Shown: positions 13,487 through 57,720 of the stretch, piece by piece | How positions within the stretch are numbered: position 1 is the first letter of the stretch | How the letters are laid out: each line of letters starts with the position of its first letter | Made by a program: the position numbers and the translations under genes | DNA from: Diphasiastrum complanatum | Lineage: Eukaryota; Streptophyta; Lycopodiopsida; Lycopodiales; Lycopodiaceae | Direction: 5' to 3' | Assembly: GCA_029204225.1 (NCBI GenBank) | Contig: CM055096.1 | Coordinates: forward strand, 36,388,954 to 36,452,953 | DNA: 64,000 nucleotides | Notes under the pieces: model-generated | The model's input: only the letters and a program-made list of their open reading frames with translations | What the model was told of the DNA's origin: nothing | The model's database searches: none

Positions 13487-13575
13487 GAGAGAGAGAGAGA
13501 GAGACAGAAAAAGCTTTATTAATGTCTTCCCCATGCCAAAAGGCATATAAGACCAAATGGAGTACATGTCAAGTA
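13487..13575 (-). mobile_element. LINE 3' end (left part of a copy split by Copia)
   Basis: The + strand reads (GA)n, AGCTTTATTAATGTCTT, then CATGCCAAAAGGCAT and AAGAC, which is the family 3' hairpin and tail. It ends in AAGTA, duplicated on the far side of the Copia element at 18589-18593, where the LINE resumes. Confidence 0.75.
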
Positions 13576-20780: not shown

Positions 20781-23700
20781 GATGATAGTCCTGTACACAG
20801 AAAGAACCAAGCGTGAGTGGAGTGTCTCGATAGAGACAGTGGTATCTGTCTCTGATCTCATAGTAAGCTGGACATAAGAAAATAAAGTGAAACTCATTCT
20901 CAACCTCCTGTAATGTACAGCACCGACAGATCTGTAATGGTCGTGGCATGTCTGTGTATCTGCCGGTCTCAATAGCGAACTGATGAGAAGAGACCCAAAG
21001 CTGGCCTATGCGGTAGCGCAGGCCAAAAGACAATGGCTGAGAGAGATAACTCGGTCTAACGGGAAGCCCTGAAGCATCTAAGTGAAGAAAGTGAATGTGG
21101 TAGAACTGAAGCTTAACCTGTGAAGGATCACGGTGAGACGAAACCATATGTATGTATGCTCTGTAGATCTGTCTGCGAATGAACGCATGAGTCCCATTGG
21201 GGAGGTCAGACATAGATAATCCCCAGCTATGTAGAAAGTCCGAAGCATACTGAAACCATGAAGACTTAGCCCGCTGCCCAGCCAAAGTGCGAGAAGATGT
21301 AAAATCCGCTACCACCGTATCTGGAGGAATCAAGCTCTGAGATTCTGTGAATGAATGTGATAATCCTGAAAATAGCCTTGACAAGGAGAAGCAAACTCCG
21401 CCAGAATAATCTCATGAGGAACGAACTGCTTGGCCTGAATCATCCGGCTAAGCATGTGAATCTGCAAACGCGAGATATCACTCCGAGTGTCTCTAGATAA
21501 ACCTGGGCACCATGTCTCTGCTGAGTATAGTGCCACTGGAGAAACAGTCGAAGAAAAGAGGCGACATCGTGTGTCTGGGTCATGCACATAATAAGTAGAG
21601 GAAAACCTCTCCATCTGAACAAGAGCAGAGCGCCCCTTGCGGAGCCTAGCCAATGCAGCTGGTCTAAACGAAAGCAATGGGCCAGAAAAGAGAACACGCA
21701 GGTATGTGTAAGACGCCACTATCTCTAGAGGCTGTCCATCAAAATAGGACATAGTGTCTCTCATATGCTGTGTTAAACACCATAACCTTAGTCTTACCAA
21801 TGTTCACCATTAGCCCCCATATCTGATAGAAGTATACAAGGCATCCAGATGTCGCTGAAGTCCTGTAGCTGAACTAGATAGTAAAACCACATCATTTGCA
21901 TAAAGAAGGATAGGGATAACAATATCTGCTAGAGGACAGCCATCCCCACCTTCTTCCCGAATGATCCGCTCAAGGTCGTCAATGTATAAAGCAAAAAGGG
22001 TGGGTGATAAAGGACATCCCTGCTTTACTCCGACCGTACTATGAATATATGAAGACCATCCATCTCCATCACGAAATCTGGCCAAAACTCTCTCATATAA
22101 TGTGATGATAGCAGCAATGATCTCCTGTGAGAATCCAAGGGATGCCAGACGCTGGAGCAGCAAGTCTCGCGGAACTGAATCAAATGCTTTGCGGAAGTCC
22201 ACAAAGCAGCAATAGACTCTCTGTTTTCTGAACTTCGCTGCCTCAATGATACATCTCAGTATGAATATCTGGTCTGTTGTGGAGTAGCCTGCTCTAAAAC
22301 CTGCCTGTCCCATAGCATATGACTCCTCTGTCTCTGTGTGAGTGCTGATGATAGACTGCATAACCGAACCATAGAGCTTAGTGGCTGATCATAATAGTAC
22401 GATAGTTGTCTACATGCAGAGGATCACCAGCCTTGAGTATAGGGTGCAAAAGGTTAGTGCACCAAGGTGTGGGAAGGCCAAAAATAACAGATTGGTTAAA
22501 AACGTAGGAGATGTATGGAGCAACAATATGGGCGATAGGTTTTAGAAAGTCCGTACTTGGAGAGTCAACATCAATGGCTTTATGGTTTTGGCCATTTTTG
22601 ATGGCGTTTTCAATCATGGACGGAGTGAAAAGGGTGAATTCTGATGGTCATGCTGAGAGAGAGATGGAAGGAGAGTCAATTGTATAAAGTTTTGCGGCAT
22701 AGTCAATCCAAGATTCAATGGCAATAGGAGTTGGCATACATGAGTTTTTAGAGAACATCTTCCAAAAGAAGGTGGAAGAAGATGAGTCCAAGGAATGGAT
22801 GAGTTTTTGCACCAAAGACTGAAAGTATGTGGACCTCTTTCGCAAAGTCATTCTATGGTATTCTCTTTGTTTAGATGCTAAGTTGTCGGGAGAATGATAT
22901 TGAGCGTGAACAACCTGCTTGTGTAGAGAGAGGCACTCATCATCATACCATCTATTGTAAGTGCATTTATGAGATGAAATTTTTTTGGAGGATATGCAGT
23001 ATTGGCTGAACAAAGAAGCGACTGAGATGAAAAGGCGGCTTGTTGGTCTACTGAAGATGAGAAGGGGAAATCGGCGAGCATTGTGGCCAGAGAGGAAGTG
23101 TAAGTAGGAAGACCAATTGGAGAGAAAGAAGGACGATGGCGATGTGTGGAATGCAGAGTCGTAACAGTACCAAGAGTAGCATGGCCAAGAGATAGGAGCA
23201 ATAGAGAGTGATCAGAGATGGTAGGGTGCATAATACGAAAAGTATGAAGAAACAGGATTAAGGCTGGTGAGCCAATGAAGTAGTCAACAACGCTGTGTCC
23301 ACCACCGTGCGGAGGGCAAGTAAAAACTGATGATGATGGCCATCGAGAAAGGCCATTCAAAATGGCTAAAGAGTGAGCTTCTGCAAGTCCAATCAACTGT
23401 TTTCCAAATGTGTAGCTGGGGTATTTGCATCCTGAGAGGTCCTGTCCAAACCCACATCCAAAACCAAAATATGTAAGAAATCACTATCTGCATGAAACTC
23501 TTTCTGCTGGGTGTTGGTGCGAGCATTAAATTCGCCTGCTACTAAAATAAGGCCCTGCTGTGCAAAGCTGGCTATATCATCGGAAAGAGCCTGGAAGGGG
23601 TCACCACCATAATCTGCAAAAGTTGATGTCTGAGGTGCAAAATAACAAATTGCTATAAAGAGATCTTGAGGTAGCCCTAAGAAGTGACCAAAAAACTGTA

Positions 23701-24031
23701 ACCAAATAGATTGCGGAAATGGATCACTTTTGAGTAGCTTAAAATGAGTACAAAAAACTTCCTTGGTAAGATATGCAACACCACCAGAGCCACATGTGGT
23801 TTTTCCTCTTACGAAAGGCCTGTACGCTGAATACCATGAGTAATCCTGAATAGCTGGAAGAGGTCGATACAGTGATTCACGAGTCTCCGCTAAGAGCAAA
23901 ATATCACATTTTTGTAAAAAGGAGTGAAAATCCCATGCCGAAGAAGATGAAAGCACACCGTTACAATTCCAAAAACCAATTTGTAATGGCTGAGGGGATC
24001 TTGGGTTGTTGTGCCTGGGATCTCCGATTTC
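20781..24031 (-). pseudogene. LINE ORF2 (EN-RT), broken, 3' end missing
   Basis: The minus strand from 24031 carries the endonuclease in frame with ORF1 after a single TAG: FWNCNG (catalytic Asn), AETRESLY (catalytic Glu), GEFNARTNT, GGHSVVDYFIGSP, SDHSLL. Then the RT: GQAGFRAGYSTTDQIFIL, FVDFRKAFDSVPR, GVKQGCPLSPTLFALYIDDL and YANDVVL (Asn in place of the first catalytic Asp of YADD). The C-terminal CCHC follows (CRCCTLQEVENEFHFIFLC, near 20940-20880). There are several frameshifts and stops. The PIP tail and 3' hairpin are absent: the copy ends at 20781 against another LINE. No ATG lies near the ORF2 start. Confidence 0.85.
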
Positions 24032-24985
24032 CTATTGTGAAATCTTATCGTAGAATTTAGGCTTGCCTTCAATAAAGACCACTCTTTGATTTCTAGCATT
24101 GGCCTCCTGAATGACCAATTTCCTCGCTTGCCATTGTGTGTGTGTGTTAGATCTTCATCCATAAAAATAAAAGGTCCTTTGAGCTTGGCTCGAAGGCGTA
24201 AAGTAGCATTGCGTTGTTCAATGGAGCGAAACTTTATGAATAAGACCTTATCATCAAATTTGCTCCGCCAAGCAGTGTCAAATCCCTCCATATTATGTGC
24301 AAGTTTAGATACAAGAAGGTCTTTTGCCTCATCAAGTGCCTTGTTTCCATTAGGGATTCCCCTAACTCGTATATTAAGAGTCTTCTTGGCTCTTCTCTCT
24401 TGTTCTGTAAAAACATTCTCTAAGGTAGAATTCACTAACGAAGGCTGAACTTGGTTAGAGGAATTACCAACTTGCTTAAGACATGAAGCCCAAGTATGAG
24501 TGTCTTCCAATTCCTTTGCCAAAGATGAGATTCTACTTTCCACATCTTGCTATGAATGAGTATCCTGTATCCCTTTCTCTTTCGTCATGTCGATATTGCT
24601 TTGCAAATCCTTATTTTGAAGACTGACCTTGGTAAGTTCTCCATGAAGTGTTTGATTTTGTAGCTGCAATTTTCTGATAAATTGAAACACTTCTTTGAAC
24701 TGGTGTTGTAAGTAGCTGTTGAGAGATTCAAAGTCGGATAAGTTGCTAGGTTGTAATTGTTCAACAGGGATATGATAAGCAAGGCAGGAATTTGTTGAGA
24801 TAATATTGGAACCGGCGTATTGGCAATGTCTTGCAATGGAGAATGAGGTGATGAGAAAGACAGACCGGTAAATGAAGGGAAAGAGCCAGCGATGGCTGAC
24901 TGGCCATCAGAAGCCTGGTCAAGAAAAGCATGGGAAGAGGGGGGGTGAAGTGGCCCCATCACGTTTGGTAGAGGCCAGGGGTCAG
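24032..24985 (-). pseudogene. LINE ORF1 (nucleic-acid-binding protein), frameshifted
   Basis: It starts at an ATG at 24962 with a Pro/Ser-rich head, shifts frame near 24560, then reads through a coiled-coil-like segment (ISSLAKELEDTHTW). Next is an RRM-like domain, NIRVRGIPNGNKALDEAKDL and FDTAWRSKFDDKVLFIKF, and basic RNxxLRLRAKLKGPFIFMDEDLT. A further slip in an (AC)n run separates it from its last 35 codons. It ends at TAG 24032-24034 in the context CAA-TAG-GAA-ATC. Family role: binds LINE RNA as a trimeric or oligomeric chaperone. The right edge abuts the 3' tail of the next LINE. Confidence 0.75.
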
Positions 24986-25011: not shown

Positions 25012-25073
<62 letters not shown>

Positions 25074-25110
25074 TTAATGTCTTTTCCATGCCAAAAGGCA
25101 TAGAAGACAA
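25012..25110 (-). repeat. LINE 3' hairpin and (CT)n tail
   Basis: On the + strand: about 58 bp of (GA)n, TTTATTAATGTCTTTTC, then CATGCCAAAAGGCAT and AGAAGAC. On the element strand this is GTCTT...hairpin...AAAAGACATTAATAAA and a (CT)n tail in place of poly(A). Confidence 0.85.
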
Positions 25111-27573
25111 AAAGTACTGTCAAGTATGTGGTAACCATGAGAGCCTCTAAAGCGTCTCCAAAGCTGTAATAAAGATAACGTCTAGTACAAACTAAGCTAA
25201 GTAGATAATTGAGAAAGCCTGTGCATGAAAGTCAAGTGTGTCCATGTCCAGATGTCAGGTCTGTGCTGGTGCTGTAGAAGGATGTAATGCGAGCTGTAAC
25301 ATCGGGAAGCACTGGGGCTCGCTGGCGTCGTCTATTGACCATGTGTAGTGTGTCTTTGTGTAGGAGGTCTGGTGGGACGTGTAACTCTCATGGTTGCCTG
25401 AGGCTGGGTGGTGCATCGTCTCTTCGTCCTGGGAATGTCGTCGTAATTACTGTCAGTCATGTCTGTATCAGGACGTGGTCTCCTTCGTGAGAAGAAGGAT
25501 GTAATCTGAGACTGTGTGCCTGGATAAGCATGCTGAGCTGATTGGCATGGGTCCTGTCGCAGGAGGGACATTCACGTATCATAAGTGCCACACAACGGGG
25601 GTCCTCGTATGAGATAAGGGACCGTAGTGTAGCTGGTGTTTGACGAAAAAGGCAATGATATCGTCCTCTGATCTCGTAGTAAACTGGACATGTGAATAAG
25701 AAATGCTTCTCTGACTCGACCATAGATAATGAGCGCAACTGGCAAATCCGCTCCTCCTGTGGGGTGCCCTGGAAGCGTCCAGTCTCAATAGCTAACTGGT
25801 GTGAAGATAATCATAACTGGCCCAATAAAAATCGAAGCCCATGAGATAGTCCCGAGGTGAGATAGCAAGGCAAAACCGGAAGTCCCCCTGTGTCTAGCTC
25901 CAGGAATTGTGTCCTATAATAGTCGTGTTTGACCTTGAGCGGTCCGTGTCATGTCCCTCTATGATATGCTCTATAAAGAAAGCATTTGATATACTCATGG
26001 GTGCCCGATGGAAGATCTGTGATGGATATGCCAAGTGTGTCTAGTATCTGGGAGGCCTGAGAGAACCATGATAGTCAATGCCCCTAGTCATGAAGGTGTC
26101 ATGATGAGGCAAGTGCCGTCTGTATGTATCTCTGCTCATCTGTGGGTAGCATCATGATACGCTGAATATACAGGATAAGCTGGAAGATGGCGGACAACTG
26201 TATGGGTGGAACCGCGAACTCTGTCAGTATAATCTGATGTGGGGCAGACGGCTTAGCCCATATCATCCGAGATAGCATGAGAACCTACAGTCATGAAATA
26301 CTGGCCCAATCAGATGATGTAAGACTCGTACACCATACCTCTGCTGCATATTGGGCGGTGGGGGTGACGAGAATATCAAAAAGCTGACATTTACTCGGGG
26401 CATCCCGAATAAATCGTCTGAAACATAAATGCTCTAGCTTGACAAGGGAGGCGTGCACCTTCCCAAGCCTGGCAGAAGCTGCCTGTCGCATACCAAATAT
26501 AGGGCTTGTAAAAAGTACGCCAAGGTAAGTGTAAGAAGATACAACCTCCAAGGGCTGCCTATCAAAGATGAGTGTCTGGCGCTGCATAAAAGCTCTCGAT
26601 GTGTTGAAAACCATAACTTTGGTTTTCAATATGTTAACACCCATCTATTGCAGAAGGCATGAAGACTGTCGAACTGTCGCTGTAATCCCTCTTTGGTAGG
26701 AGATACGAGAACCACGTCATCAGCATATAAAAGTATGGCAATCAAGATACCACCAATGACTCTCTCAAGCTCATCGATATATAGCCCAAACATGGTTGGA
26801 GATAGAGAACAACCCTGTTTCACGCCAATGGTACTCCAAATGTGATCTGAGATGCTGATGTCACTCCGAAAACAGCCAAGGACTCTCTCGTAGAGTGCTA
26901 TCACTGCCAAGATCGTGTCAGTAGAAAATCCAAGATCACGTAGCCGCTATATGAGAAGGGATAGTGGAACAGAGTCGAAGACTTTCCTGAAGTCAACAAA
27001 ACAACAGTAGATCCGCTCTTTCCTGTGTCTGGCCTCTTCGATAATGGTCCGAAGGGTGAAGACGTGATCTGTGGTGGAGTAGTGTGCTCTGAAACCCGCC
27101 TGGCCCAGCATGTAATCTTCTAGATTCTGCCTCAGAGCTGACTGCTGATTGGAGGATGGTGCCATATAGCTTAGCAATGATATGCCCAACCATAATGGTG
27201 CGATAATTACCAGGGTCCATGGGATCACCAGTTTTGTGAATGGGATGGATAATTGAGCAAAGTGGCTAGGGTAGGTGATAGTGTGTCTGCAACATGGATA
27301 AGGAGTTCGGATTCGAGGTCATCAATATCGCGGGTGCGACGGGTTTTCAGTCTATTGATGGCCGTTAGGACCATGTCTGAGGTGAAGAAAGTGAAAGTGG
27401 TCGGCCGGGGCTCTCGTGTGTCTCATAAAAAAAAGTATGTCTTTGTCTGTGATGAAATCGGAAAGATCTCCGGCCGTGGATGATAAGTGTATGCCATTAC
27501 AATTCCATATTCCTAGATGTAGGTGGTGTGGAAGGGGTCCCGGGATGCGCCCATGCCCGGGTACCCCAATTTC
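25111..27573 (-). pseudogene. LINE ORF2 with endonuclease deleted
   Basis: After the ORF1 TAG the same frame reads GIWNCNGIHLSS and reaches the ETHES catalytic block at about 27425. It then jumps directly to the EN-RT linker (FFTSDMVLTAI near 27390), so most of the endonuclease is deleted. The RT follows: FRAHYSTTDHVFTLR, FVDFRKVFDSVP, IGVKQGCSLSPTMFGLYIDEL and YADDVVL, with a broken CCHC near 25740-25690. The C-terminus keeps QSQITSFFSRRR (25491-25514) and a distal ARITSFYS (about 25271-25293). It is adjacent to the copy at 20781-24985 on its left and to the copy at 28732 on its right. Confidence 0.8.
25491..25514 (-). other. PIP-box motif of LINE ORF2
   Basis: QSQITSFF followed by SRRR: a full match to the PCNA-interacting consensus, near the end of ORF2. 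Confidence 0.6.
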
Positions 27574-28729
27574 CTATAGGCTGTTTCCGGATGCAGTACC
27601 ATCGAGGTACCGAACAGCTCCATCTCGATAGATCACCCTTCTTCAGGTAGCTTTGGCGGTTTGGAATGGTTGACGTCTTTCTTCAACTTGGATATAGGTA
27701 AGGTCATCATCCATGAAGATTTTGGTGCTTTTCAATTTGGCTCTTTGTTGCCAGGTTTCTTTACGATACGTATGTGACATAAAGCGGAGGATCAAAGTAG
27801 TGGTGTCCTTCTTAGTGCGCCATGCTGTATACAAACCACTTGCATTATGTCCTAGGGTAGTACATAAAAATCTTTTTGCTTCTTCTATGGCGTTTTGGGT
27901 GTCAGCGATGCCTCGTACCCTGATATTGAGAGCCTTGGAATCTCGAAGTTTTTCTTCCGTAAGAGTAGTGGAAATGAATGATGAGAAGGGGGCAGACTTA
28001 CTTCCGCCATCGGCTGTCCAAGGTGGGCTTGTACTTTTGTCCTTAGTGAGGATGGAAGCCCATGATTGGTCGATTCTTTGTGTTGACTCAGCTGCTGTTC
28101 CAGATCTTGTAGCTTTGTCATTGTCTCTTTTTGCGGCTGGGAAACATGTTTGTTATCCATCTCTGTCTGAAGCTGTTGGCTCTCTGTACGTAAGTGGATG
28201 ACTTCCAATTTCAAGGCTTGGACGTCTGCTGTCAGTTCTTTCAGTTGGTAGGCTAGGAAATTTTCAAAAGATTTGGAGCTAGTGTAGTCGGCATGAGATA
28301 AGAAGGGCGTGTCTGGATCTGCGATGGTAGAGATGGGAGTGGAGGGGACAGGGGGTGAAGGAGGGCCAGAGTGGGAGGCGTGAAGAGAGAGAGAGGGGGG
28401 GTGTTGCGCAACAGTAGGAGGGTGGGCGACAAGTTGGCCAGCAGGAGGTTGGGCACCAGGTGGAGCAGAATATGGAGCAGGTGGGGTGGCAGCAGGTGGA
28501 GCAGCAGACGGAGCGGCGGGTAAGGCGGCAACAAGTGGAGCGGCAGCAGGTGGAGCTGCGGGTAGGGCAGTAGGTGGAGCTGCGGGTAGGCTATAGATTC
28601 TTTACTTTTTGGAGCTTGTAAGGGTTGTAGTTTTTCTTGCCATAGAGGTGGAGGGGGGGGCGATGGAGGAGGGGGGAGGGGAGCTCAGATCTCCATGGAG
28701 CAGCGATGGAGGAGGAGCAGCGATGAGGA

Positions 28730-28731: not shown

Positions 28732-28798
<67 letters not shown>

Positions 28799-28838
28799 TT
28801 TATTAATGTCTTTTCCATGCCAAAAGGCATATAAGACT
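28732..28838 (-). repeat. LINE 3' hairpin and (CT)n tail
   Basis: (GA)n of about 60 bp, AAAGCTTTATTAATGTCTTTT, then CATGCCAAAAGGCAT and ATAAGAC on the + strand. Confidence 0.85.
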
Positions 28839-51601: not shown

Positions 51602-51840
<239 letters not shown>

Positions 51841-52018: not shown

Positions 52019-55000
52019 CTAGCTACGAGCAAGCCGAAAGTAATGAGTGATGGTAGTAGTGGGTCGTGATGTAGGCTGGTGGGAGGCGTATGAAGATCTA
52101 GTAGCACTGGATCGAGCCGAAACTCTCTGTGTCTTCGATCTTCGGACGGGGACGTCAAAATCCGCAACCGAAATATCCACTCTGTCTCGCTTCTGGAAGA
52201 ACTGAGTAATGTGAGCCTGACTGGAATCCATATCTGAGAGCTTAGGTAGAAGTGAAGCTCGTAAAATATACATCTCTCTCAAAAGAAGACCCACGCATCT
52301 AGCATCTGGATACTCGAGGAAGGAGCTCAACGTGAGGGGAATATCTCGGTATAAACAATGGTATCGTCCTCTAATCTCATGGGCAGCGAAAGATGAAATG
52401 AAACTCATCTTCCACCTCTTGAAGAGAACAGAGCTGACATATCCGCTGCAATCTGGGAGTGTCTGTGTATCTACCTGTCTCGATAGCAAGCTGATGAGAA
52501 GAGACTCGAAGCTGTCCTATACGATATCTCAGACCAAAAGATAGCGTCTGTGTAAGATAAACTGGAAGAATAGGCAAGCCCGAAACGTCCAGCCGTAAAA
52601 GATGTGTGCCATAATAATGTAGCTTGACCCTATCTGGATCAGGATGTGACCATATAGTGCGTATGTAGCTCCGGTAGATCTGCTGTCTGATATAAGCATG
52701 GGTTCCATTCGGAAGATCAAGTGCGGATAAACCCCAAGTCTGAAGAAGGGCTGAGACACTGCGATACCAAGAGTGCTTGGCTCCCTGATCCGCAATGGTA
52801 CGAGATGAAGTGAGAGCAGCAACAATGTATCTGGAGGTATCTAGATCTGATACCCTGTGAAGAAAGGTGATGATCTGAAACATAGCACCAACAACTAATG
52901 GAGGAGAAGCAAACTCGGCTAGTATGATATCATGTGGTACTGAGGGCTTAGCCCGGATTATCCTACTGAGCATGAGAATCTGGATACGAGTAAGATCTCT
53001 CCATGTATCGCGTGATAAATCAGGGCACCAAGTCTCAGCCGAATATAGCACAACTGGGGAGACAGTAGCAGAAAATAGTAGGCATCTGGTAGCAGGATCC
53101 TGCACATAATAAGTAGAGCAAAATCTCTCCATATGCACAAGAGCGGTATGCCCCTTGCGGAGCCTGGCGGTGGCTGCTGGTCGAAAAGTGAGTAGCGGAC
53201 CAGAGAAAAGAACTCCCAAATAGGTGTAGGAGGTCACGATCTCAATCGGTAGCCCGTCATAGTAGAAAATCACATCTCTCATATGCTGTCTGTTGGTGTT
53301 AAACACCATAATCTTAGTCTTCTTAAGGTTAACCGTCAATCCCCAACGCTGGCAAAAGTGATGTAAAGCAGAAAGGTGACTTTGTAAACCAGCTGCAGAG
53401 GATGAGAGGAGAACCACATCATCAGCGTACAAGAGAATGGGGATAATAATGTCTGCTAGGGGACAGCCCTCTCCACCTTCCTCGCGAATAATCCGCTCGA
53501 GGTCATCTATATATAGTGCAAAAAGAGTGGGTGATAAGGGGCAACCCTGCTTCACACCAATGGTAGAATGTATCTGTGAGGACCAGCCACTACCATCTCT
53601 GAAACGTGCCAAGACTCGCTCATATAAAGTAATGATCGCAGCAATAGTATCCTCTGAAAAGCCAAGTGAAGATAGTCTCTGGAAAAGAAGATGTCGTGGA
53701 ACAGAGTCAAAAGCTTTGCGAAAATCCACAAAGCAACAGTAAATTCTCTGTTTCCGATGTCGAGCCTCCTCAATAATGCATCTCAAAATGAAGATCTGGT
53801 CTGAAGTAGAATATCCCGGTCTGAAACCAGCTTGACCCATAGCGTGTAAACCCTCAGTCTCAGCAAAAGATCCAGTAACTGTCTGTAGTATAGAGCCATA
53901 TATCTTAGCCAGAGTGTGGCCAATCATAATGGTGCGGTAGTTTCCTACATTCATGGGATCACCTGCCTTGAGGATGGGGTGAAGGATATTAGTACACCAA
54001 GCCGTAGGAAAACCAGAAGTAACAGCTGTGTTAAAAACATGAGCAATGTAAGGGGAGATGAGATGTGCTACGGGCTTTAGGAAGTTTACACTTAAGGAGT
54101 CATAGTCAGTGGCTTTATTTAGTTTGGCATGTTTAATGGCGTTTTCAACCATGTCAGGGGTGAAAAGTGAGCAGTGGTCAGGTCTTGGTGAGAGTGAGGT
54201 AGGAGGAGAGTCCGTGGTATATAACTCCGTGGCATACTCGATCCAGGATTCGATGGCTATGGGGGCCAATGTTGAAGAGTGTCTGGTGAAATGTTTCCAG
54301 AAAAAAGAGGAGGAGGGTGAATCTAAAGAGTTGATCATTTTTTGGCAGAGTGATTGTAGGTACTTGATCTTCTTTGTTCTGGTGGTTCTATGATATTCTT
54401 TCTGGCATTGTTTGAGTGTGGCAGGGGAGTGTGACCTGGCATATGTCACATGATTGTGAAGAGAGCGGCATTCTGCATCATACCATCTGTTGTGAACACT
54501 TCTGTGAGATGATGTCGTTTTGGTGGGGAAGGATGAGGAAGCAGCAGCTAAGAGGGATGTAGAGAGAAAAGTGGCTTGCTGGTCAATTGGTGCCATGAAC
54601 GGGAAGTTAGCGAGTAGTTGGGATAAGATTGTGGTGTAATTAGTGAATCCAGATTGGGTGAAAGGAATACGTTTATGAGTGGGAAGAGAGCAAGAAACTT
54701 GCAAAGAAGAGGTTATGTGACCAAGTGAGATGTGTAAGAGTGAGTGATCGGAAATGGTAGGGGGTGTAATGGAGAAATCAGAAATGTGAGAGATCAAAGC
54801 AGGTGATCCAATAAAGTAGTCGACCACACTATGTCCTCCACCATGAGGATAGCATGTATATGCTGATGAGGAAGGCCACTGTGTGAGGCCATTCAAAATG
54901 GCAAGAGCGTGTGTCTCTGCTAGAGTGATCAACTGCTCCCCGAAAGATGTAGCTGGAGTGTCTGCATCCTGTGATACCCGGTCTAGCCCCATATCCAAAG

Positions 55001-55562
55001 GGTAAAGCCTGAGAAGATCCGTAGCTGCATGAAATTCGGTTTGTCTAGAACTTGTGCGGGCGTTGAAATCACCTGCTAGTAAAATGGAACCCTGCTGAGA
55101 AAAGATAGCAATATCATCTGAGAGAGCCTGAAAAGGGTCCCCGCCAAACTCAGCAAACACTGAGGTCTGTGGAGCAAAATAGCATACAACTATATAGATG
55201 TCCTGAGGTAATCCCAATAGTGAGCCAATAATGTGTAACCAAATATAGCGAGCGTATGGATCTTGTTTAACCATCTGAACTGTGGTGTCTTTGTATAAAC
55301 AAGCTACTCCTCCAGATCCTCGACAAGTTTTTCCCCTAACAAATGGACGAAAAGCAGAATGCCAAGAGTACTCCTGTATATTTGGAAGAGGATGATATAA
55401 GGACTCATGAGTTTCAGCCAACAACAAAATGTCGCATTTTCTAATAAAATCAGCAAAGTCTCCGGCTGATGACGAAGATAAAAAACCATTACAATTCCAG
55501 AAGCCAAGTCTCAAATTGGTAGGGGATCTCAGGTAGCTTCTATATCTGGGGGCCCCTAGTTC
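52019..55562 (-). pseudogene. LINE ORF2: endonuclease-RT-CCHC-PIP tail (one late frameshift)
   Basis: The frame continues from ORF1 past TAG 55563-55565 and has no ATG before about codon 80. Endonuclease: GFWNCNGF, LLAETHESLY, LLAGDFNARTSS, HGGGHSVVDYFIGSP, TISDHSLL, carrying the catalytic Asn, Glu, Asp/Asn and His of APE-type nucleases. RT: AGFRPGYSTSDQIFILR, FVDFRKAFDSVPR, GVKQGCPLSPTLFALYIDDL and YADDVVLL (about 53410-53430). Post-RT: MLSRIIRAKPSVPHDIILAEF. Zinc site: CQLCSLQEVEDEFHFIFRC. Immediately after the last Cys (near 52380) a small deletion shifts the frame; the shifted frame then gives EIRGRYHCLYRD, QAHITQFFQKR (52196-52219) and a C-terminal TITHYFRLARS. It cuts target DNA and reverse-transcribes its own RNA; the PIP motif suggests PCNA binding. 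Confidence 0.9.
52196..52219 (-). other. PIP-box motif of LINE ORF2
   Basis: QAHITQFF followed by QKR: a full match to the PCNA-interacting consensus Q-x-x-[ILM]-x-x-[FY]-[FY]. It sits at the same place as the motifs at 25491 and 18931. Confidence 0.6.
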
Positions 55563-55565
55563 CTA
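55563..55565 (-). promoter_or_regulatory. conserved in-frame UAG between ORF1 and ORF2
   Basis: Context CAA-TAG-GAA-CTA. ORF1 upstream and ORF2 downstream are in the same frame. The same arrangement is seen at 24032 (CAA-TAG-GAA-ATC) and 27574 (CTA-TAG-GAA-ATT). A candidate readthrough site. Confidence 0.55.
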
Positions 55566-56482
55566 TTGTGGAAGGTCGAAAAATCTCGGTTTCCCGTCAA
55601 TAAAAACAACCCTTTGCCCTTTCTCTTTCGCTTCAAGGATAATCTTTTTTCTTGCCAACCATTGAGTATTTGTTAAGTCATCATCCATATAAATGAAAGT
55701 ACCTTTAAGCTTTGCCCTAAGCCGAAGGGCAGCATTGCGTTGTGAAAGCGAGCGGAACTTGATAAACAAAACATTGTCATCAAATTTACTACGCCAAGCA
55801 GTATCAAAACCATCAGCCACATGAGATAACTTGGAAATGAGCAAATCCGTAACTTCTTCCAACGGTTTTCCACCATTGGCAATGCCTCTTACTCTAATGT
55901 TAAAGGCTTTGTTGGCCCTTCTGGCTTGTTCACCCAAAACTGTCTCCAAATCGTTTTCCTTCGGAAAAGATGAAATCTGAGAGTGATTACCTTGCTTAAG
56001 GATCGATGTCGTTTCTTCAACCTGTTTTGCGAGTGATGAGAGTTTGCTGCCCATATCATCCGGTTTGAAGAGTGCTGCCCATGTTTTCGTCTCCTCGACT
56101 TGTTTCTCCAAGCTATTGATCTTGTTGGAAGTCTCCTCCCAAACACTTTTTCTGCAATTCGTTGCTTAAGATATATATTTTCTTGCTCAAGCTGCTCCAC
56201 ACGTTCCGTGACACCAAAAAGATCCTTAGCTAACTTGCTATTTTCAGCTTCAAAGAGGTGTAGTTGCTTCTTAAGTCCAAGAATTTCTTGTCGGATAAAA
56301 CTAAGATCATAAGCAAAAAGACTTTCGGTAGGTTTGGAAGGAGTGTAGTCAATGGCAGCCATGTTGACAGGAATGTCACTAGTTTCTATCACCGAAGACG
56401 GCTCCTCCATCACTACCGGTGATGGGGGGGTGTCCAACAGGGAGGGGGCTGTAAGAACACCCCCCTTTTTCTTAGGTGCCAT
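55566..56482 (-). pseudogene. LINE ORF1 (coiled coil plus RRM-like), one-base frameshift
   Basis: It starts at ATG 56482 (MAPKKKGG) with a Lys-rich and Pro/Ser-rich head. A long coiled coil follows: EILGLKKQLHLFEAENSKL, RVEQLEQENIYLKQRIAEK. A one-base slip in an A5 run near 56150 breaks the frame; the next frame resumes with VEETKTWAALF, an RRM-like domain NIRVRGIANGGKPLEEVTDL, DTAWRSKFDDNVLFIKFRSL, and a basic RLRAKLKGTFIYMDDDLT tail ending KPRFFDLPQ-stop. The layout (coiled coil, RRM, basic C-terminus) is that of LINE ORF1 RNA chaperones. The slip is the only break seen. Confidence 0.85.
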
Positions 56483-56788: not shown

Positions 56789-56832
56789 GCGTTTTGAGAA
56801 TCGTAGTGCGACTATGTGTGTATATATGCTAC

Positions 56833-56858
<26 letters not shown>
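56789..56858 (+). repeat. right target-site duplication of the full-length LINE
   Basis: Copy of 51602-51668 with G for A in TATATATxCTACT and a longer TA run, followed by (GA)n as at the left copy. Confidence 0.8.
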
Positions 56859-56903
<45 letters not shown>

Positions 56904-56942
56904 AGGGAGGGAGGGAGGGAGGGAGGGAGGGAGGGAGGGAGG

Positions 56943-56998
<56 letters not shown>
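56859..56998. repeat. (GA)n-(GGGA)n-(GA)n microsatellite
   Basis: About 40 bp (GA)n, then about 13 GGGA units (56897-56948), then about 50 bp (GA)n. It forms the tail of the LINE piece at 56999. Confidence 0.9.
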
Positions 56999-57001
<3 letters not shown>

Positions 57002-57127
57002 AATTTTGATTTAGTTATGTTGTTGACGGCATTGCTCCGTCTTAAACGTTTTTTCCATGCCAAAAGGCGTATAAGACTAACCAAGACGGAGCAATGCCGT
57101 CAACAACATAACTAAATCAAAATTAAC
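56999..57127. repeat. perfect 45-bp inverted repeat around a LINE hairpin
   Basis: The left arm 56999-57043 and right arm 57083-57127 are exact reverse complements (45 bp; one further pair at 56998/57128). The 39-nt spacer holds the LINE 3' hairpin (CATGCC...GGCGT, ATAAGAC). The right arm lies in the 3' UTR side and the left arm lies where the other copies have AAAAGACATTAATAAA. It looks like a snap-back copy of the UTR appended at the 3' end. Confidence 0.9.
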
Positions 57128-57720
57128 TAAGAAGAGGATAATGTCCAGGATTATATGGTACGTAGACCATTTACAGACTCAACTGGCATCTCGTCAGTGC
57201 TCTAACTCTCTCACTACCTCTGAACAATCTCAAATATCTCATTAATAGCAGCAGGTTTAATATCTACAGAATGAATGATACCATCCCTGTAGATCAACCG
57301 CTTTTCATTCGTTAGAGCCTCCTGTTTTGCCTTCTTCCGTTCTTGAACCTGAATGAAAGTAAGGTCTTCATCCAGGTATATCGTGGTGCCCCGCAGTGTA
57401 GATCTCTTCCCTAGCACTGCATGACGACCAGGGGCAGATGCAAAGCGTATAACAAGAGTACCTGGATCTCTCTTAGGCCGCCATGCAGTGGTGTTGAAGA
57501 CTCTCTTCAAGAAACTTTTTAGCTTAACCAACAACATCATGGGAGTTCGTAATACCTCTAACTCAGACATTAAGAGCCTTTTGCTCTCGCAAATGGTTCT
57601 CGGTGAACGTAGCTGAGATAAAAGGTGGAGGTGGTAGAACAGTAGTATTAGGACCTTTAAGCACATCTGTCCAGGATCGGACAGCAATATTGTAAAGACC
57701 ACTAGGGAAAACCCCTAAGA
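57128..57720 (-). pseudogene. ORF1-only LINE (half-LINE), cut by Gypsy
   Basis: Minus strand 57702-57214 encodes the C-terminal part of an ORF1: RTPMMLLVKLKSFLKRVF, NTTAWRPKRDPGTLVIRFA, GRHAVLGKRSTLRGTTIYLD and EDLTFIQVQERKK, then KRLIYRDGIIHSVDIKP. It ends at TAG 57214, closely followed by TGA. Only about 85 bp of 3' UTR separates it from the inverted-repeat 3' end; no ORF2 is present. It resembles the ORF1 at 27574 (YRDG, TTLILRF, DDLTYIQV). The upstream part is replaced at 57721 by the LTR of a Gypsy element. Internal deletion is the simplest origin. Confidence 0.7.

Follow-up and report, generated by a model that had tools for sequence, protein, structure and literature searches.

It has long been asked how LINEs produce their second protein, and the reviewed cases, L1 and SART1, use reinitiation (available part of PMC5972666). 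The locus analysed here raises this question in a form of its own: can the ORF2 of a plant LINE be reached by reading through the UAG codon that ends ORF1, as a preliminary description of this DNA had proposed? The window (the whole stretch of 64,000 nucleotides under analysis) is plant-like DNA of 41.5% G+C, rich in retroelements, and several LINE copies lie on its minus strand, with an ORF2 that encodes an endonuclease and a reverse transcriptase. The parts of three of these copies, named A, B and C, are as follows.

55563..56482, minus strand: ORF1 of copy A, which starts with the ATG at 56482-56480, ends at the UAG and changes frame once near 56150
55563..55565, minus strand: proposed readthrough codon, the UAG at the end of ORF1 in copy A (CAA-UAG-GAA)
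55503..55562, minus strand: leader of copy A, 20 codons without AUG, from the UAG to FWNCNG
55521..55557, minus strand: predicted RNA hairpin 3′ of the UAG of copy A, weak (-9.6 kcal/mol, z -0.8)
52019..55562, minus strand: ORF2 of copy A, with Pfam matches to Exo_endo_phos (1.9e-14) and RVT_1 (1.3e-33)
24032..24034, minus strand: UAG of copy B, context CAA-UAG-GAA
23994..24025, minus strand: predicted RNA hairpin 3′ of the UAG of copy B (-7.2 kcal/mol, z -2.0)
23393..24031, minus strand: 5′ part of ORF2 of copy B (endonuclease), Exo_endo_phos 4.6e-07
27574..27576, minus strand: UAG of copy C, context CUA-UAG-GAA
27534..27567, minus strand: predicted RNA hairpin 3′ of the UAG of copy C (-25.9 kcal/mol, z -3.4)
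27427..27573, minus strand: start of ORF2 of copy C
56789..56966, no strand: likely target-site duplication flanking copy A, 5′ copy, matching 51602-51781 at 89% over 180 bp
51602..51781, no strand: likely target-site duplication flanking copy A, 3′ copy

With both Exo_endo_phos and RVT_1 in ORF2, these elements class as APE-type LINEs, and the best PDB sequence matches of ORF2 include the R2 and L1 ORF2 proteins. No protease family was present among the Pfam matches, and a C-terminal Cys/His motif was recognized by eye in the ORF2 of copy A. As previously described, all three copies carry a TAG on the minus strand followed by GAA and by ORF2 in the same frame. The distance from this stop to the FWNCNG or IWNCNG motif, earlier put at about 25 codons, is actually 19-21 codons. 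The reported lack of a nearby in-frame AUG was borne out: the first one is codon 97 after the stop in copy A, codon 226 in copy B, behind three further stops, and codon 50 in copy C. Copy A had also been called full-length. It is flanked by a long direct repeat that is probably a long target-site duplication, but ORF1 and ORF2 each change frame, the ORF2 frame being lost near 52380 and resuming in 52516-52019. Much of the direct repeat is microsatellite, and its two copies share a non-repeat stretch of ~45 bp. Copies B and C are more broken than A, and because none of the three is intact, the window by itself presents conserved anatomy and no working element. Since the ORF1 proteins of copies A and C are only 38-43% identical, the arrangement of ORF1, UAG and ORF2 must be old.

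The host genome (1.745 Gb) was surveyed with the FWNCNG motif written as a degenerate 17-mer, which gave 1017 exact sites (control, 0), and with its V/I/L/M-WNCNG form, which gave 758 (control, 7). The sample comprised 143 places: the first 100 of the 1017 FWNCNG sites, the first 40 of the 758 others, and the three window copies; all 140 fetched places lie on contigs C1 and C2. At the first 100 FWNCNG places the nearest upstream in-frame stop was TAG in 92, TAA in 6 and TGA in 2. Across the sample, it was an in-frame TAG situated 17-29 codons upstream of the motif at 113 of 143 places (one of which, L148, is mis-anchored), so that its presence there goes beyond chance. This UAG was followed by G in 111 cases, the exceptions being L024 and the mis-anchored L148. 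The next codon was GAA in 79 cases and GGA in 27 (106 of 113 together), and the codon before the UAG was CAA in 65 of 113. Six of the remaining 30 places had an in-frame TAGG lying further up, with another stop intervening, 11 had a TAGG out of frame and 13 had none within 45-100 nt, including L122 and L128, which by eye are not LINE-like.

The preliminary description had named three observations that would speak against readthrough: ORF2 lying in another frame in most copies, a sense codon in the place of the stop, and a conserved AUG upstream of WNCNG. At the 113 of 143 places given above, ORF2 follows the stop in the same frame. In the four large clusters TAG was kept in frame in 53 of 55, 9 of 11, 7 of 10 and 8 of 9 copies, and by eye the stop was replaced in single copies by CAG (L053) and TAA (L055). 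The expectation about the AUG largely held. An in-frame AUG between UAG and WNCNG is absent from most copies, nine of the 113 carrying one (L022, L034, L050, L059, L060 and L074, and also L068, L107 and L118), but six of these nine fall into a single ten-copy cluster, in which six of the seven in-frame copies have the AUG six codons before FWNCNG. This cluster still keeps UAG-G and the leader sequence, and four of the five multi-copy clusters have no in-frame AUG before the endonuclease. An AUG of the L1/SART1 type, at or near the ORF1 stop, was missing from most copies and present in that one cluster and in the locus L003 described below. In the four large clusters and in most representatives of this sample, a single frame contains ORF1, one UAG and ORF2. 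The proposal thus came through these sampled tests largely intact and was supported by them, readthrough itself being what we infer.

Thirty-five of the first 100 places form a young cluster, with a median pairwise identity of 99.7% over ~700 nt. UAG-GAA was found in all 35, within the context CAA-UAG-GAA in 34 and UAA-UAG-GAA in one, and in 28 the ORF1 frame ran without a stop over the 300 codons or more that precede the UAG. No in-frame AUG was detected within the leader of any of the 35 copies; in 33 the next one is codon 97, beyond the first endonuclease motifs. Because the cluster has recently spread as near-identical copies, elements with this layout have been copied recently, and the layout appears to have been mobile without a nearby AUG. 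The young cluster is the strongest functional argument, since its ORF2 must have been made somehow.

Folding 3′ of the UAG was analysed in 34 junction representatives that are less than 88% alike. The mean z was -1.76, with p<0.05 in 17 of the 34. When 70 windows of 42 nt between -420 and +546 were compared in 24 representatives (all but copies A, B and C of the window, the mis-anchored L148 and six whose flanks are short), the lowest mean z, -1.90, was found directly after the UAG, and the next lowest was -0.88. The predicted fold is not uniform, as the first pair after the UAG is located at 5-8 nt in 19 of the 34 representatives, at 1-3 nt in 13, and at 4 and 9 nt in one each. In L107, L115, L118, L126 and L148 folding was no better than in shuffles, and in copies A and B taken singly some windows elsewhere fall below the z of the junction. 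Copy C, L114, L130 and L136 have predicted stems of ~11-13 pairs made of different letters at nearly the same place. Covariation was weak, the 3′ structure being visible in folding energy only: in a 12-sequence group three pairs were changed on both sides, a score that 51 of 500 shuffles reached, and nothing rose above shuffles in a 15-sequence group. Alignment A4 held 33 of the 34 representatives (L148 was left out, as it was from one frame count), and A5 and A6 held 27 of these 33; L085, L105, L107, L115, L118 and L150 were set aside because of deletions, their length or their register, exclusions that were chosen after A4 and the folds had been seen, and L136 was kept in A5 despite its stem in another register. 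A pseudoknot pairing GCUCC with GGAGC was considered and dropped, the pattern fitting only 4 of 34 representatives.

The leader is also conserved at silent sites. In six families with open frames (43 open-frame copies reduced to 6), four-fold site identity was 0.71 in the leader (n=102), compared to 0.33 in the ORF1 tail (n=180) and 0.38 in ORF2 (n=384). In 15 diverged representatives (83 of 97 reduced to 15) it was 371/590 (63%) in the leader, 147/414 (36%) in ORF1 and 411/1057 (39%) in ORF2, and the leader exceeded its flanks in 81 of 98 pairs. Both tests were done on copies outside the window and exclude the 277-nt loci. In the six families the leader codon positions 1, 2 and 3 are conserved alike (0.71, 0.73 and 0.70), a pattern that argues for a constraint on the RNA more than on coding; in the 15 representatives identity was 0.70 at positions 1 and 2 together and 0.57 at position 3. 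As far as such comparisons tell, the leader looks constrained as RNA, and perhaps as protein too. Folding potential and silent-site conservation 3′ of the stop, neither of which the preliminary description had mentioned, are the stronger evidence. The identity of the stop as UAG was dropped as an argument, because two readable ORF2 ends in the window (52019 and 29078) are also TAG; by eye, these are followed by T and C.

A scan of prokaryote genomes revealed relatives of the LINE on three contigs (L001, L002 and L003) of a metagenome-assembled genome labelled as uncultured Trichormus. Because the fern Azolla has Trichormus azollae as its cyanobiont, we regard these contigs as probable fern contaminants in a cyanobacterial assembly, probably from Azolla. 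No junction between ORF1 and ORF2 was seen in L001. In L003 an open ORF1 of 367 codons is followed by UGA-CGG and, in the same frame, by ORF2, with an in-frame AUG 27 nt after the stop (codon 10); its local fold gave nothing significant (z 0.3 over 42 nt, -0.9 over 90 nt). UGA-CGG is a type II readthrough context (PMC3542737), found here at this one locus. Two predicted proteins, P0001 and P0005, are 45-51% identical to pieces of L003. A search with the ORF1 protein of L003 retrieved 11 ORF1 relatives of 327-428 aa; none of them is fused to ORF2, within a search range of ~320-1010 aa that excludes full-length fusions. In nine of the 11 the C-terminal ends agree to within a few residues, and these ends may reflect a stop codon or the end of a contig; P0035 has a different end, and P0039 is shorter by about three residues. 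With the ORF1 of copy A as query within a joined frame, candidates of ~690-2200 aa yielded no match at all; within these search ranges no ORF1-ORF2 gene lacking the stop was seen. Of ten aligned ORF2 relatives, six have their initial Met at the WN motif or immediately ahead of it, P0001, P0005, P0007 and P0015 start further inside, and so do other predicted proteins. With protein starts so mixed, the idea that a start without AUG marks this lineage only finds no support in the protein search. No relatives were found in viral contigs, nor relatives of the L003 ORF1 protein in plasmids. In the PDB, three matches to the ORF1 alignment were obtained up to E 0.067, with apolipoprotein A-IV at the top; we read this as coiled-coil likeness.

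We propose that these APE-type LINEs make ORF2 mainly by programmed readthrough of the UAG, which would yield an ORF1-ORF2 fusion as a small fraction of ORF1 output; from the sequence comparisons above we put the probability of this reading at roughly 80%. Ribosomes would insert an amino acid at the UAG ending ORF1, the predicted hairpin 3′ of it may stimulate this event, and the fusion would be made at a low ratio relative to ORF1, as in gammaretroviral Gag-Pol, and would itself be the working enzyme. Readthrough is proposed because it explains together the single stop, the single frame, the G at +4, the folded and silently conserved stretch, and the usual lack of an AUG. With somewhat less assurance, we think it rather probable that an old plant LINE lineage makes its reverse transcriptase only as a Gag-Pol-like fusion through UAG-GRA and a folded RNA, whereby the enzyme would stay attached to a protein that binds its own RNA; the signal is kept across highly diverged families, and the layout with a single in-frame stop recurs in the probable Azolla relative. 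LINE proteins mostly act on their own RNA, and programmed readthrough, if true, would provide a simple physical basis for this cis preference. It would also represent a retrovirus-like solution in a non-LTR element, in which an RNA signal sets the ratio of ORF1 to ORF2, and a plant nuclear readthrough signal, represented by many natural variants, would be added to those known.

Known readthrough signals offer a frame for this candidate. In type III signals the UAG is followed by G or by a purine-rich stretch, with some RNA structure on the 3′ side; type II contexts are UGA-CGG or UGA-CUA, often with an extended stem-loop; more generally, 3′ structures typically start ~8 nt downstream of the stop, and A at -1 and -2 stimulates readthrough (PMC3542737). 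The preliminary description had compared the junction with the type I context of plant viruses (UAG-CAR-YYA). This comparison did not stand, since no CAR codon follows any of the 113 in-frame UAGs; judged by its letters and predicted folding, with UAG followed by G in 111 of 113, the putative signal fits type III best. Among plant viruses, Tombusviridae use UAG-GGR (type III), tobamoviruses type I and tobraviruses type II (PMC3542737). The LINE junction shares with type III the UAG-G and the 3′ folding potential, and L003 shares the type II context; however, a LINE is not a virus, and its next codon is GAA or GGA instead of GGR or CAR. Gammaretroviral Gag-Pol (UAG-G plus pseudoknot, PMC3542737) is similar in its UAG followed by G, its nearby 3′ structure and its polymerase in frame behind the first protein. 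In contrast, the element described here is a LINE without LTRs, has a hairpin as its predicted 3′ structure, and shows no protease among its Pfam matches. Plant Sirevirus LTR elements carry a conserved 11-bp stem near the gag-pol junction, but their pol is in the +1 frame or non-overlapping, with no single in-frame stop, and for other retroelements the questions raised are those of frameshifting or bypassing (available part of PMC5009743). LINEs and readthrough are thus each known, and on the open-licence PMC matches listed, among which no LINE with programmed readthrough was found, their combination would be new; the passages of PMC8226300 that were examined contain nothing on LINE readthrough.

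Other routes to ORF2 have to be weighed against this evidence. Termination at the UAG could be followed by reinitiation, aided by the downstream structure, with the restart on a non-AUG codon or, in families that possess one, on the AUG. L1 and SART1 are likewise two-ORF LINEs whose ORF2 is coupled to ORF1 translation, SART1 by stop-restart with a downstream structure and L1 by a proposed unconventional reinitiation, but they restart at the ORF2 AUG or at an overlapping stop-restart site (available part of PMC5972666), whereas most sampled copies of the plant LINE have no in-frame AUG, and ORF1, stop and ORF2 lie in one frame, which reinitiation would not need. Start codons do occur near the junction: in frame at codon 15 after the stop in one cluster and at codon 10 in L003, 20 nt downstream of the UAG in copy C, and, in 38 of 110 copies, in some frame between -50 and +60 relative to the UAG, mostly outside the ORF2 frame. 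On the other hand, 33 of the 35 young copies run for 96 codons after the UAG without an in-frame AUG, the first AUG in any frame lies 74 nt downstream in copy A, and no common near-cognate codon could be discerned by eye in six aligned leaders. Taken together, these data make reinitiation unlikely.

The nearly invariant UAG-G also has the bases of a splice acceptor, and a conserved 3′ splice site at this position might give ORF2 the AUG of an upstream exon. We hold this to be very improbable, because the UGA-CGG of L003 offers no AG acceptor and splicing needs neither folding nor a shared ORF1 frame. In addition, all 35 young copies keep the codon before the UAG, and hence the end of ORF1, so that no spliced retrocopies are seen among them. 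The conserved silent sites of the leader could reflect internal ribosome entry at this stretch, or another role such as RNA binding or packaging, with ORF2 started from a non-AUG codon; this explanation, to which we attach just as little weight, leaves the single in-frame stop and the near-constant distance and frame unexplained. Even smaller is the chance that U-to-C RNA editing removes the stop (UAG to CAG, UGA to CGA), or that the UAG is an ordinary one with chance readthrough only. U-to-C editing occurs in fern organelles, but we know of no nuclear case. For human L1 constructs that mobilise Alu at a low level, readthrough of premature stops was considered by the authors of that study to be the likely cause (available part of PMC4176336); chance readthrough, however, would not be expected to place the fold and the silent sites behind the stop under selection, as programmed readthrough would.

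The 3′ ends of the LINEs in the window showed some regularities of their own. Four of five reach a (CT)n tract within ~40 nt, while the fifth, that of element D, does so after an inverted-repeat arm. Separately, a conserved hairpin-like motif at the 3′ terminus, TATRYGCC..GGCAYGG, was recognized by eye together with a short A/T tail behind it. The locations are as follows.

25016-25069, 28733-28794, 51669-51781, 56858-56999 and just 3′ of 13527-13550: (CT)n-associated LINE 3′ ends
13527-13550, 25082-25105, 28811-28834 and 57051-57074: 3′-terminal hairpin-like motif, with a variant near 51811-51850

Copies B and C are arranged head to tail behind (CT)n tracts, and it is possible that the LINE targets microsatellites. 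In the 3′-terminal motif of copy A both arms are changed in a way that, by eye, still permits pairing. Element D (57051-57676) is a half-LINE, composed of a broken piece of ORF1 and a LINE 3′ tail without ORF2, and is associated with an inverted repeat at 56998-57128.
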